NCBI GenBank assembly: GCA_017416735.1
Contig: JAFQBF010000023.1
Coordinates: forward strand, 1 to 36,252
Reading direction: 5' to 3'
Origin: Bacteroidaceae bacterium
GTDB taxonomy: Bacteria; Bacteroidota; Bacteroidia; Bacteroidales; Bacteroidaceae
DNA: 36,252 bases
Below are positions 1-9,253 of the stretch, piece by piece. Each line of letters begins with the position of its first letter. Within the stretch, counting starts at the first letter, position 1. Below the pieces are notes generated by a model. It worked only from the letters and a program-made list of their open reading frames with translations. It searched no databases and was not told the DNA's origin. Position numbers and translations under genes: made by a program.

Positions 1-168
<168 letters not shown>

Positions 169-206: not shown

Positions 207-238
207 CAAAGGTACGAAATCTATTTGAATTTCCCAAA
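207..238 (-). promoter_or_regulatory. Bacteroides-type promoter of the ABC-F gene
   Basis: Reading the minus strand, TTTG (235-238) is followed after 20 bp by TACCTTTG (207-214), matching the Bacteroides -33 TTTG and -7 TAnnTTTG elements. The start codon is about 45 nt downstream. The outer end of the left inverted repeat begins only 2 bp upstream of the -33 element. Confidence 0.75.
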
Positions 239-240
239 TA

Positions 241-330
241 TGCCGCCACCCGTGCAACACGCCTGCAATGTCTTGTCATTCAATGCAAAACTGTTGCACG
301 AGTAGTGCAACGGGGCTGTTTCTCTGTCAC
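241..330 (+). repeat. Left 90-bp imperfect inverted repeat
   Basis: Pairs in inverted orientation with 2065-2154, without gaps, 69 of 90 positions identical. The best conserved blocks are the outer end (TGCYGCCACCCGTGYAACA) and an inner block AAACTGTTGCACG. Inside lie three copies of a 7-mer in alternating orientation: GTGCAAC (252-258), GTTGCAC (293-299), GTGCAAC (305-311). The last two form a perfect 7-bp hairpin with loop gagta. The inner end overlaps the stop codon of the VirE-like gene (327-329). Confidence 0.85.
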
Positions 331-1583
331 AACGGCACCACCCTATATGCACTTCCGTATCGGGTTCGGGTACGCTCCACTCCCATCGCCAAAAGCATAC
401 GCCCCATATTGCTGACGCTCCTTCCGCGGAAGGCACTCGGGAAACGTTTCTGCATCCGGCAGAAAATTTCGGTGGACGACAACTGAACTCCCTCCTCGCC
501 TTCCGAAGGCAGACGGAAGCAACGGAAGAACACATCCTGTTCGGGCGAATGTCGGTAGAACATCCGGTTATGTTCCTGAATCTCCTTTTCCTCGTCCGAC
601 GAGAACCAAAACCGCTCACCGCCAAGAAGTTCCGTTTTCAGTTGCGCATAGAGTTGGGCATAATCGGGCTTCGTGCAATCTATTTTCGCCTTCACCTCCA
701 CACACAGGAAACGTCGGCTTCCGGTGGTGTCGGTCAGCAATTCCTTCTGATTGCTGGTGCCGATGAAGGACGCAATCCTCGGCAACTGGCTATAATAGCT
801 TCGGTGCGACTTGCGGAAAGTGAGCTTCTTCAGCTGCATCAGGTTCTTCAGGGTCGCCATACTCCGCACACCGTAGCGGTCGAACTCATCCATATTGATT
901 AAGCCAAAAAGCGAGAGCTTCTGTTCGCATCCGCTTTGGCTGGTCAAATCGAACTTGTCGATGTAAAAACGTTGCAGTTCCTCCGGCAACAGCATCGAAC
1001 AGAAGGTGGATTTGCAACGCCCCTGCTCGCTGCTGATTAATAAAGGAACCACGGCATTGGCGCACTGCCCGTCCAGGCCCATCCATTGAGCCACCATCGC
1101 CAACATCCAGCGATGGAATCCGTTCACCCACCAGCCTTCGTCCGATACCCTCCGTGCCAACTCCGCTATGCGGTCTTCCCCATCCCATTCGGGAAGCGAA
1201 TCCACATATTCCACAAAGGGATGATATTCTGCGACTTGCTCGGAAAACAGCAGACGCGACACATCCTTGTCCCAACAGTTGACACCCTGTTTGCGGGCCT
1301 CCATACAGAAGGTGTTCAGCATCCGTTGATCGACCAAGCGGAAATCACCCTCTCCCCTTTTGCGAAATTCCGTCTGTTCGGTCAACACATTGAAACGGAA
1401 ATCGTACTTGCCGAACAAGCAGGCCTCCAAGTCGTCCAGCAGAGAAGGAAGCGCCTTCTTCGGCTTCCCCTCTTGAGAGGGGCATAGGGTGTGCGACACA
1501 CATTCCGAAGGTGTTTGTGACACGGCACATCCGGGAGTATTCCCGAACCATTTCTTAAAAAAATCCATCATTCTTTTCATCAT
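327..1583 (-). CDS. VirE-like (DUF3874-type) P-loop ATPase
   Basis: A 418-aa protein resembling the virulence-associated E family, D5/primase-helicase-like ATPases common in Bacteroidetes mobile DNA; the C-terminal 70 residues resemble the DUF3874 domain. Visible motifs: a P-loop at about residues 184-193, SSEQGRCKST, with the usual glycine before the lysine replaced by cysteine; Walker B LINMDEFD at about 228-235; and GSRRF at about 288-292, a likely arginine finger. A conserved stretch YIDKFDLTSQSGCEQKL follows the P-loop. There is no N-terminal primase (VirE_N) domain. The frame is open to 1634, but that start would lie upstream of the promoter at 1614-1644, so I chose the tandem ATGs at 1578-1583. 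The role is unknown; replication or DNA remodelling of the surrounding element is plausible but unproven. Confidence 0.8.
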   Translation of the reverse strand: MMKRMMDFFKKWFGNTPGCAVSQTPSECVSHTLCPSQEGKPKKALPSLLDDLEACLFGKYDFRFNVLTEQTEFRKRGEGDFRLVDQRMLNTFCMEARKQGVNCWDKDVSRLLFSEQVAEYHPFVEYVDSLPEWDGEDRIAELARRVSDEGWWVNGFHRWMLAMVAQWMGLDGQCANAVVPLLISSEQGRCKSTFCSMLLPEELQRFYIDKFDLTSQSGCEQKLSLFGLINMDEFDRYGVRSMATLKNLMQLKKLTFRKSHRSYYSQLPRIASFIGTSNQKELLTDTTGSRRFLCVEVKAKIDCTKPDYAQLYAQLKTELLGGERFWFSSDEEKEIQEHNRMFYRHSPEQDVFFRCFRLPSEGEEGVQLSSTEIFCRMQKRFPSAFRGRSVSNMGRMLLAMGVERTRTRYGSAYRVVPL

Positions 1584-1613
1584 AATCGGTTTGTTCTTGA
1601 GTTTTTCATACCG

Positions 1614-1644
1614 CAAATATAACATCTTAAACACCTGTTGTCAA
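1614..1644 (-). promoter_or_regulatory. Bacteroides-type promoter of the VirE-like gene
   Basis: On the minus strand TTGA (1641-1644) is followed after 19 bp by TATATTTG (1614-1621), a full match to the -7 consensus. The tandem ATGs at 1578-1583 are about 30 nt downstream. This fixes the gene start and excludes the longer open frame. Confidence 0.65.
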
Positions 1645-1738
1645 GTGTTTTACACAAAAATCACATCTAATGGAAATACCCGCATTTTAGGGTGTAACCT
1701 CCTATATCCATTGATTATAATTCCTTGAAGTTTAGACT

Positions 1739-1826
1739 GTATCACTAAAATGATACAGTCGTTTCACTACAGTAATAATATCGTATCATTTAAGTGAAAC
1801 ATACGTATCACAAAAGTGATAAAGTC
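1739..1826 (+). repeat. Four tandem 22-bp iteron-like repeats
   Basis: Units start at 1739, 1761, 1783 and 1805, an exact 22-bp period with no gaps. Consensus: GTATCACTAAAGTGATAA followed by AGTC. Units 1 and 4 agree at 19 of 22 positions; the others agree at 15-16. Each unit has a palindromic core, best in unit 4 (TATCAC-AAAA-GTGATA) and unit 1 (GTATCA-CTAAAA-TGATAC). The period equals two helical turns, putting all units on one face of DNA. This is the architecture of plasmid replication iterons or of a cooperative operator. They lie 95 bp upstream of the VirE-like promoter. Confidence 0.85.
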
Positions 1827-1834
1827 AAAAGATT

Positions 1835-1878
1835 TGCATCCGACAATGAATACGTCTGCATCCGTACAACGATACGAC
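1835..1878 (+). repeat. Second pair of 22-bp direct repeats
   Basis: Two adjacent 22-bp units at 1835-1856 and 1857-1878 share TGCATCCG at the start and ATACG near the end, 15 of 22 positions in total. The pitch equals that of the neighbouring array, but the sequence is different and the phase is shifted by 8 bp. Confidence 0.5.
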
Positions 1879-1905
1879 AGCAAGCTTAGGGATGTATCGA
1901 CCACG

Positions 1906-1947
1906 TACAGCTCCGTTTATAGCCGGATGAATGAAGTCAGAGCTGTA
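1906..1947. repeat. 8-bp perfect inverted repeat inside the element
   Basis: TACAGCTC (1906-1913) and GAGCTGTA (1940-1947) are perfect inverted copies separated by 26 bp. The stretch 1879-2064 otherwise has no gene I can support; short open frames crossing it have no recognisable product. Confidence 0.35.
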
Positions 1948-2064
1948 AGATATTCATCATAAAAGTGATTCTTGATTACAACATTTGCATTCAGCGAAAA
2001 AACACCATTTCACAACTTGCGGATCCATCATCCGACCCCCCAAAGATTTATATTAGCGGAAACT

Positions 2065-2154
2065 GTGGCAGGGAAACACGCCCGTTACACTGCCCGTGCA
2101 ACAGTTTCGTATTGATTCACAGAAAGTTGAAAGTTTGTTACACGGGTGGCAGCA
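2065..2154 (-). repeat. Right 90-bp imperfect inverted repeat
   Basis: Inverted partner of 241-330. It preserves the same internal order of 7-mers, read on the minus strand as GTGTAAC, GTTGCAC, GTGTAAC, so the hairpin is retained with one G-T change. Most differences between the copies are transitions, clustered in the middle third. From 2155 to 2386 I see no gene; this is the grpE leader region. Confidence 0.85.
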
Positions 2155-2386
2155 TTTTTTTGTTCTGATTTGGCCAGAACCTCTGATGTTGTGGCTATTT
2201 AGAGATTGTTTGGATTTCTTGGATAAACAGATTCTTAATAACACTGACACATACACATATTTTCAGCCAAGTTGTCAGTTTCCAGTCCCATATTCCCGGC
2301 TATTCTGTCACATTTCCTGTCAAGGCACGGAATTTGTTATAGAAAAAACAACTATATATATTGACAATAATAAAACTGCATACATT

Positions 2387-2995
2387 ATGAGCAAAGAAAT
2401 GAACCAACCTCAGGAAGAGGAAATCTTGAAGAACGAAGAACCTGTAGCCGAAAATGCGGCCCAAACCGAAGAAACACCGGCTGAAGAAACCGCACAAGCC
2501 GAAGAAACTCCGGCACAGGAACTGACCGTGGAAGAGCAACTGGCCAATATGCTGGCCGAAGCACAACAGATGGTGAACGAAGAAAAGGACAGATACCTCC
2601 GCCTGGCTGCTGAGTTCGACAACTACCGCAAGCGTACCCTGAAGGAAAAAGCTGAGCTCATCAAGAACGGTGGCGAAAAGACACTGACCGCCATTCTGCC
2701 CGTATTGGACGACTTCGAACGCGCTCTCAAGAATATGGAAGCAACCGAAGAAACCCGTGCGATGAAAGAAGGTGTGGAACTGATTTTCAACAAGTTCAAC
2801 AAAGTACTCGAACAGGAAGGTCTCCAGAAGATTGAAACTGAAGGACAGGCTTTCGATGTGGATTTCCACGAAGCCATCGCCCTCATCCCCGCCCCGAGCG
2901 AAGACATGAAAGGCAAGATTCTGGACTGCGTACAGACCGGTTACAAGCTCAATGATAAAGTAATCCGTCACGCCAAGGTGGCCGTGGCACAATAA
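2387..2995 (+). CDS. grpE: GrpE nucleotide exchange factor
   Basis: A 202-aa cytoplasmic co-chaperone that releases ADP from DnaK. The N-terminal 60 residues are acidic and low complexity, rich in Glu, Ala and Thr, as in many GrpE proteins. A long helical segment follows with RYLRLAAEFDNYRKRTLKEK, the family signature. The C-terminal beta domain ends in GYKLNDKVIRHAKVAV, the usual GrpE terminus. The open frame extends back to 2096, but the first 97 codons are not GrpE-like and cross the right inverted repeat, so the ATG at 2387 is the start. dnaJ follows after 12 bp. The 230-bp leader contains no clear TAnnTTTG box and no CIRCE operator, so its heat-shock control cannot be read from sequence. 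Confidence 0.97.
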   Translation: MSKEMNQPQEEEILKNEEPVAENAAQTEETPAEETAQAEETPAQELTVEEQLANMLAEAQQMVNEEKDRYLRLAAEFDNYRKRTLKEKAELIKNGGEKTLTAILPVLDDFERALKNMEATEETRAMKEGVELIFNKFNKVLEQEGLQKIETEGQAFDVDFHEAIALIPAPSEDMKGKILDCVQTGYKLNDKVIRHAKVAVAQ

Positions 2996-8098: not shown

Positions 8099-9253
8099 AT
8101 GGATATAGAATTCGTAAGAAGTCGCTTCATCAAGCATTTTGATGGCACTACAGGCTCAGTATATGCATCTCCAGGCCGTATCAACCTCATCGGTGAACAC
8201 ACCGACTACAATGGTGGTTTCGTATTCCCGGGTGCAGTAGATAAAGGTATGATTATCGAAATCAAACCGAATGGTGAAGATAAAGTCAAGGCTTATTCTA
8301 TCGACTTGAAGGACTATGTAGAATTCGGCTTGAATGAGGAAGATGCTCCACGCGCCAGCTGGGCAAGATACATTTTCGGTGTATGCCGTGAAATGATCAA
8401 GCGTGGCGTAGAAGTGAAAGGTTTCAACACAGCATTTGCAGGTGACGTGCCCCTCGGTGCAGGTATGTCTTCTTCAGCAGCATTGGAAAGCGCATACGCA
8501 TACGCTATCAATGACTTGTTCGGTGACAACAAGATTGACAAGTTCGAATTGGCCAAGGTAGGTCAGGCAACTGAACATAATTACATCGGCGTGAAGTGCG
8601 GTATCATGGACCAGTTTGCTTCTGTATTCGGTAAGGAAGGTAGCTTGATGCGCCTCGATTGCCGTTCATTGGAATACCAATATTTCCCGTTCAAGCCGGA
8701 AGGCTACCGTTTGGTATTGGTTGACTCAGTGGTTAAGCACGAATTGGCTTCTTCAGCATACAACAAGCGTCGTCAGAGCTGCGAAAACGTAGTTGCTGCT
8801 ATCGCCAAGAAACACGAAGGTGTACAATTCTTGCGCGACTGTACGTTGGAAATGCTGGCCGAAGTGAAGGAAGAAGTTTCAGCAGAAGACTATATGCGTG
8901 CTGAATATGTAATCGAAGAAATCCAACGCGTATTGGACGTATGTGATGCTTTGGAAAAGGGCGATTACGAAACAGTAGGTCAGAAGATGTTCGAAACTCA
9001 CCATGGTATGAGCAAGAAGTACGAAGTAAGCTGCGAAGAGCTTGACTTCTTGAACGACGTGGCATTCGATTGCGGTGTGACAGGCTCACGCGTAATGGGC
9101 GGTGGCTTCGGTGGATGTACAATCAACCTCGTGAAGAACGAATTGTACGAAACATTCATCACTACAGCCAAGGAACGTTTCAAAGAAAAATTCGGTCGTA
9201 GCCCGAAGGTTTACGATGTAGTAATCAGCGATGGTTCTCGCAAATTGCTCTAA
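8099..9253 (+). CDS. galK: Galactokinase
   Basis: A 384-aa GHMP-family kinase that phosphorylates galactose at C1. Seen: the galactokinase signature GRINLIGEHTDYNGG at about residues 26-40; the ATP-binding GAGMSSSAALE in the GHMP motif 2; CGIMDQFASVFG with the catalytic aspartate; and C-terminal GGGFGGC. Length matches the family. It ends the galactose operon and is followed by a strong terminator. No galT or galE is linked to it in this window. Confidence 0.97.
   Translation: MDIEFVRSRFIKHFDGTTGSVYASPGRINLIGEHTDYNGGFVFPGAVDKGMIIEIKPNGEDKVKAYSIDLKDYVEFGLNEEDAPRASWARYIFGVCREMIKRGVEVKGFNTAFAGDVPLGAGMSSSAALESAYAYAINDLFGDNKIDKFELAKVGQATEHNYIGVKCGIMDQFASVFGKEGSLMRLDCRSLEYQYFPFKPEGYRLVLVDSVVKHELASSAYNKRRQSCENVVAAIAKKHEGVQFLRDCTLEMLAEVKEEVSAEDYMRAEYVIEEIQRVLDVCDALEKGDYETVGQKMFETHHGMSKKYEVSCEELDFLNDVAFDCGVTGSRVMGGGFGGCTINLVKNELYETFITTAKERFKEKFGRSPKVYDVVISDGSRKLL

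Follow-up and report, generated by a model that had tools for sequence, protein, structure and literature searches.

What kind of unit consists of one predicted helicase gene and a periodic array, enclosed by inverted ends that hold no recombinase? The question is raised by a locus near the start of contig JAFQBF010000023.1 of a Bacteroidaceae bacterium (assembly GCA_017416735.1), whose positions 1 to 36,252 constitute the stretch analysed here, hereafter the window. We found that the unit, whose gene is a virE (vapE) homolog, is real, beyond chance, and belongs to a family of chromosomal elements bounded by such ends. As to how the family spreads, we give about even odds (0.5) to the reading that VirE, predicted to resemble the initiator helicase PriRep1 of Staphylococcus aureus pathogenicity islands (SaPIs), replicates the element starting at an origin that the element carries, so that spreading would take place without an own transposase. 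In what follows, L-, G- and C-numbers denote loci, genomes and contigs, respectively.

The unit and its site

The two arms of the unit, at 236–331 (plus strand, outer edge 236) and 2064–2159 (minus strand, outer edge 2159), form an ungapped inverted match of 96 nt with 77% identity (self-BLAST 77.08%, 74/96, E 8e-16). Their local alignment score of 104, where none of 20 shuffles exceeded 28, together with the survey controls given below, rules out a chance origin of these terminal inverted repeats. A sequence-only reading of the same DNA, which had placed ends of 90 nt with 69 identities around a single ATPase gene together with a periodic array at 241–2154, was right to within a few bases. 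The sole gene between the arms is an open reading frame (ORF) on the minus strand, 327–1634, with a VapE-like domain (PF05272, E 5.5e-29) and DUF3874 (PF12990, E 5.8e-23). Its 3′ end extends to the inner edge of the left arm, which overlaps the last virE codon and the stop. The ORF scan revealed no further ORF of at least 70 aa avoiding virE in this interval, and the interval holds no integrase, packaging or interference gene, nor, as had been read from the letters, any transposase or recombinase. PF05272 and PF12990 were the families found in the ORF, with no match to the Y1 family. The predicted fold of VirE residues 54–432 matches the D5/superfamily 3 (SF3)-like helicase fold of PriRep1, and the product is predicted to be a replication-initiator helicase of the SaPI PriRep1 kind.

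The neighbours of the unit, both outside it, are the 5′ part of an ABC-F gene on the left (1–158, minus strand) and grpE on the right (2388–2995, plus strand). At this ABC-F/grpE locus, virE was found in none of 29 relatives, in 21 of which the ABC-F start is visible in the ~1.5-kb flank (the comparison used 30 of 59 genomes with a grpE match); the nine gaps printed measure about 200–1250 bp. At another locus, in G029, a 75%-identical virE of the same subfamily has the same type of ends (L132, end score 90), and in G033 ends of the window type stand unpaired on two contigs with the same surroundings (L278/L279). The sequence-only reading had entertained, as the picture opposed to a mobile unit, a locus occupied by the full unit in all relatives, with ends occurring nowhere else; instead, the unit is absent here in relatives, and its ends recur elsewhere, also around another virE gene. 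Likeness confined to the element was likewise seen for L213/L223 and L142/L020. Inverted terminal repeats together with absence of the unit from the site in relatives are the marks of a transposon or insertion sequence, and we consider a bounded, mobile architecture highly probable. In the unit's own genome, which is 84.8% complete, the ends have no additional copy at E 0.001; with no partner sharing them found there, the earlier label of a non-autonomous unit can only be tentative.

The ABC-F/grpE gap also looks like an insertion hot spot. In four relatives it holds other inserts of about 150–190 bp (L035 2651–2805, L038 1119–1274, L039 1160–1348, L040 2621–2769), which differ from genome to genome; each has inverted tandem words of 7–8 bp at its ends and an AT-rich palindrome in the centre, and further copies of the L035 type are present in G030, and one in the unit's own genome (C146).

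A family of end-bounded elements

Movement is established for a sister type in G031 and G035, not for the window copy itself. These two genomes share one end type, that of L113, in 16 copies at 13 loci. The end unit is ~107 bp long, and its conservation drops sharply at both edges. Six of the copies are paired, around virE and an HU-like gene (L113) or around the HU gene alone (L335, L362). The other ten are unpaired within the fetched stretch, among them one by a virE 3′ end near the contig start (L334) and one by an HU fragment (L340), and two sites are apparently common to both genomes (L338/L366 and L339/L364). The L113 end type is therefore a dispersed repeat, two copies of which bound each gene-bearing element. 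The HU-only element of G035 (C29) is 83.6% identical to that of G031 (C30) over 1.24 kb, the flanks are unrelated and the homology stops at the ends; thus, the sister type moves as a unit. On the right side of L113 in G031, the end unit begins directly after the stop codon of the flanking gene; in five other genomes this gene continues without an end unit (L342, L344, L347, L348, L349), and the right-hand homology in relatives starts at the end unit. The two flanks of L113 lie on different contigs in relatives, which is a synteny breakpoint or a fault of the metagenome-assembled genome (MAG), so that rearrangement or misassembly is possible at this locus.

A search for exact empty sites covered the window unit, L128, L129, L132, L023, L020, L113 and the HU-only element; none gave a clean base-level junction, and each comparison showed absence or another site state. 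At the place of the virE element that G008 and G060 share (L128 6381–8220, compared with L177/L155), G027 and G028 have a gene of ~0.9 kb, SPFH/prohibitin-like by eye, and G027 retains an end-like stretch. In G008 and G060 (L131/L173), the surroundings of virE are oriented oppositely to the flank, pointing to an inversion. L023 also contains a palindromic repeat of ~77 bp (8363–8439) with well above 100 matches listed in the ten relatives searched.

By a fixed criterion, inverted ends were detected at 35 of 110 distinct virE loci, compared with 3 in the mismatched-pair control and 10 in the direct-orientation control; the unit's own genome has 16 virE matches, and one comparison of loci covers the best 80 of 312. 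The threshold of the test varies with the shuffles: L119 passed in the first run and failed in the re-run, as did L029 and L129, which were added by hand to the end-comparison, interval, word and array sets. The proportion of end-positive loci differs with VirE size, being 26/65 below 500 aa, 1/27 at 500–650 aa and 8/18 at 650–800 aa. Ten of the 37 intervals examined contain virE alone, eight virE with short unnamed ORFs, 14 virE with an HU-like gene, two virE with DUF6078 and three other cargo; five of the 14 HU-like genes were scanned by Pfam, and those five are HU-HIG (PF18291). By scan or by eye, no recombinase was noted in 36 of the 37 intervals, the rest of the genomes not having been searched, and no integrase, terminase or capsid gene was named within them. 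The end partners of L024, L119, L147 and L205 are possibly mispaired. Long relatives combine PF08800, PF05272 and PF12990, several of them within the same kind of ends.

Some observations lie beside this pattern. Gene-free short forms with similar inverted ends occur near virE genes (L121 1871–2069, 199 bp; L024 2630–3013, 384 bp), and L164 is 86% identical to L129 inside and has no end units. Many similar VirE copies of 500–630 aa are found in G011 (L092–L099), G019 (L102–L105 and L107) and G055 (L108–L110), with a common upstream region, several at contig ends and mostly without inverted ends. Recent transposition of these copies was considered and set aside, because the end test was passed by just 1/27 loci in this size range.

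The ends themselves were compared in 29 of the 35 elements, after near-duplicates (ATPase identity of at least 90%) were dropped and without L110 and L191. Within an element the two arms are alike (mean score 82), whereas arms of different elements are mostly unlike: the within-element score is higher than the best cross-match in 23 of the 29 cases, equal to it in two and lower in four. There is a weak correlation of end similarity with ATPase similarity (Spearman 0.25, Mantel p 0.0005). Strong folding was seen for some end units (L113 with z of −4.0 and −7.9, L116 with −3.4, L132 with −2.9).

The array precedes virE in the window as four 18-bp imperfect dyads (1739–1822, no strand assigned) that start at 1739, 1761, 1783 and 1805, a spacing of exactly 22 bp, and its lag-22 match is 0.64 against a null maximum of 0.50. 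The repeats previously described as iteron-like are indeed periodic, but they are more precisely four dyad sites, presumed to be an origin or an operator. A periodic array of 20–24 bp lies upstream of virE in 74 of 111 loci, compared with 5/111 for control lags of 26–30, and 50 of these 74 are lag-22 arrays. Positives comprise 30 of 37 virE loci with ends and 44 of 74 without, some of the 44 being other tandem repeats (e.g. L094, L261) and not dyad arrays; the array therefore accompanies virE, ends or not. Among the 29 end-bounded elements, the same geometry is significant in 24, and the site sequences differ between lineages. Stand-alone four-site arrays in intergenic DNA of G008 and G060 (L178–L183), some adjoining an end-like stretch, are probably decayed elements. 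The family membership of the unit, the family-wide 22-bp array and the HU-like or primase parts of relatives had all escaped the sequence-only reading.

Putative promoter-like boxes, read from the letters, lie upstream of virE on the minus strand at 1614–1644 (−7, TATATTTG, 1614–1621; −33, TTGAC, 1640–1644), and we take them to be of the Bacteroidetes promoter type. Because these boxes fall downstream of GTG 1634, from which the ORF is open, and because the family alignment agrees, the likely start of virE is ATG 1583, which gives a protein of 418 aa (327–1583).

What spreads the ends

The sole gene encodes a predicted helicase of the type that initiates DNA replication, so the family would owe its spread to replication machinery and not to a transposase of its own. 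VirE would load as a hexamer on the array and/or the end units, and would open and unwind the element, which the host polymerase would copy. One candidate origin is the end unit that starts at the stop codon of virE, a position like that of SaPI origins. Elements that have them would be aided by the HU-HIG protein or, in the long relatives, by the archaeo-eukaryotic primase (AEP) domain. Because no target duplication was seen, insertion of the copy may proceed via a host-dependent step, for example strand invasion or the repair of ends at a fork. Of the three earlier suggestions, the mobile unit and the minimal integrated replicon would thereby hold jointly, while paired regulatory repeats fare worst. 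Only tentatively do we go further and propose a self-loading initiator helicase as the mobility protein of a new element class. Each such element would have four sites as its loading array, and either end would be an origin-like unit; it would encode neither a transposase nor an integrase or nuclease. Its inverted ends, as full elements, HU-only elements and solo ends, would spread through the chromosome by copying.

A number of observations weigh against copying by VirE, and some of them speak directly for its main rival, in which a transposase, RAYT (the transposase associated with repetitive extragenic palindromes, REPs) or integrase coded elsewhere moves the ends in trans and virE and HU are passengers; we judge it rather unlikely, the genomes not having been searched for such an enzyme. 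HU-only elements (L335, L362) and unpaired ends move without virE inside, as derivatives resembling miniature inverted-repeat transposable elements (MITEs) do. The end test failed at 75 of 110 virE loci, and 10/110 passed it in direct orientation. Beyond their relation to the ATPase, the ends are uncoupled from DUF3874 (partial correlation 0.01); we therefore claim no co-evolution of the two, and the value counts against DUF3874 reading the ends. Ends can be unrelated even at 80–87% ATPase identity. Repeated words, tested in the same 29 elements, were significant in the arms of 10/29, the window's not among them, and were accordingly ruled out as a general end feature, and the window arms fold no better than shuffles (z −1.4 and −0.3). 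The constancy of virE is partly by construction, because the loci were chosen by virE. One interval of the 37, that of L205, which is among the three with other cargo, contains an IS66 transposase, although its ends are probably mispaired, because those of the ortholog L129 pair at 1.74 kb without it. Our results include no exact empty site and no free copy; by eye, no target duplication was seen in the elements printed, for which there was no base-level empty site for comparison. This last point also speaks against a trans-acting enzyme, as does the lack of a recombinase in 36 of the 37 intervals. Moreover, end types differ among copies of one genome, so that several trans partners would be needed.

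We regard as improbable a stripped phage satellite, similar to SaPIs and other phage-inducible chromosomal islands (PICIs), that would keep its own initiator and leave integration and packaging to a helper phage. The predicted PriRep1-like fold would suit it, and relatives of VapE are present in 462 phage records; eight of these, unannotated virome contigs without exception, reach 80% coverage or more of the long protein, and one of the eight (L312) has inverted ends. Yet the IMG/VR scan gave only 2 loci, the intervals had no integrase, terminase or capsid gene named in them, and many copies per genome reside at unrelated loci. With 2 loci in viral contigs and 8/462 records covering 80% of the query, carriage of the element by phages was rejected; for L312 and L314, the phage and plasmid records with ends, no second record was obtained in which the flanks are the same and the element is missing. 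An immobile chromosomal locus, possibly a defence gene, with the paired repeats as virE terminators or operators, is just as improbable: the array precedes virE with or without ends, many end-less virE loci are plain genes, the strongly folding end units (L113, L116, L132) could terminate transcription and the HU-HIG expansion in Bacteroidetes has been suggested to pre-empt mobile elements, but the unit is absent from the syntenic site, bounded units occur at different loci and the window protein has no PADLOC match.

Relation to known systems

In line with the earlier claim that no such Bacteroidales element is known, we found no description of one in the open PubMed Central (PMC) papers searched. 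Genes for VapE/VirE, DUF3874, HU-HIG, DUF6078 and BT4734-type proteins recur in Bacteroidales, where they are annotated singly and mostly without a role; if placed together in one bounded element that has mobile ends and an origin-like array, they would have a joint, testable one. If the helicase alone drives the spread, this would be mobility beyond the known recombinase chemistries, as well as one source of intergenic repeats in these bacteria.

Like MITEs and other non-autonomous derivatives, the elements have inverted ends without a transposase, and the gene-free forms L121 and L024 resemble them further; unlike MITEs, most sampled intervals hold an intact virE, and neither a target duplication nor a partner transposase was met, the genomes not having been searched for the latter. 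In REP/RAYT systems (REPtrons), a gene stands between two end repeats that also occur as solo ends, RAYTs being HUH/Y1 transposases. The present family is similar in having a gene between inverted ends and dispersed unpaired ends in G031/G035, but has a helicase where those systems have the Y1 transposase, and its ends are ~100 bp long. Solo ends are a feature of the L113 type (10/16), and there are none of the window type in the unit's own genome. The dyad-symmetry element of Epstein–Barr virus (EBV) oriP has four dyads 21 bp apart, and the likeness to it is one of geometry only, four dyads about two helical turns apart. The BT4734 family of AEP primase-helicases, for which we saw neither ends nor an array described (PMC5862659), is matched by the long relatives with PF08800, PF05272 and PF12990, several with such ends. 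The window protein differs from it in lacking PF08800, the BT4734-like primase domain present in L101, L116 and L031.

The initiators of SaPIs and of the staphylococcal cassette chromosome mec (SCCmec) are found on islands of many kb that also carry genes for an integrase or recombinase, whereas here one 418-aa gene lies between inverted ends with a four-site 22-bp array upstream. The unit nevertheless resembles SaPI PriRep1, SaPI5 Rep and SCCmec Cch2 in its predicted fold, in the position of a predicted initiator-type helicase beside repeats and in the end unit downstream of virE; SaPI origin repeats lie directly downstream of rep (PMC7581432).
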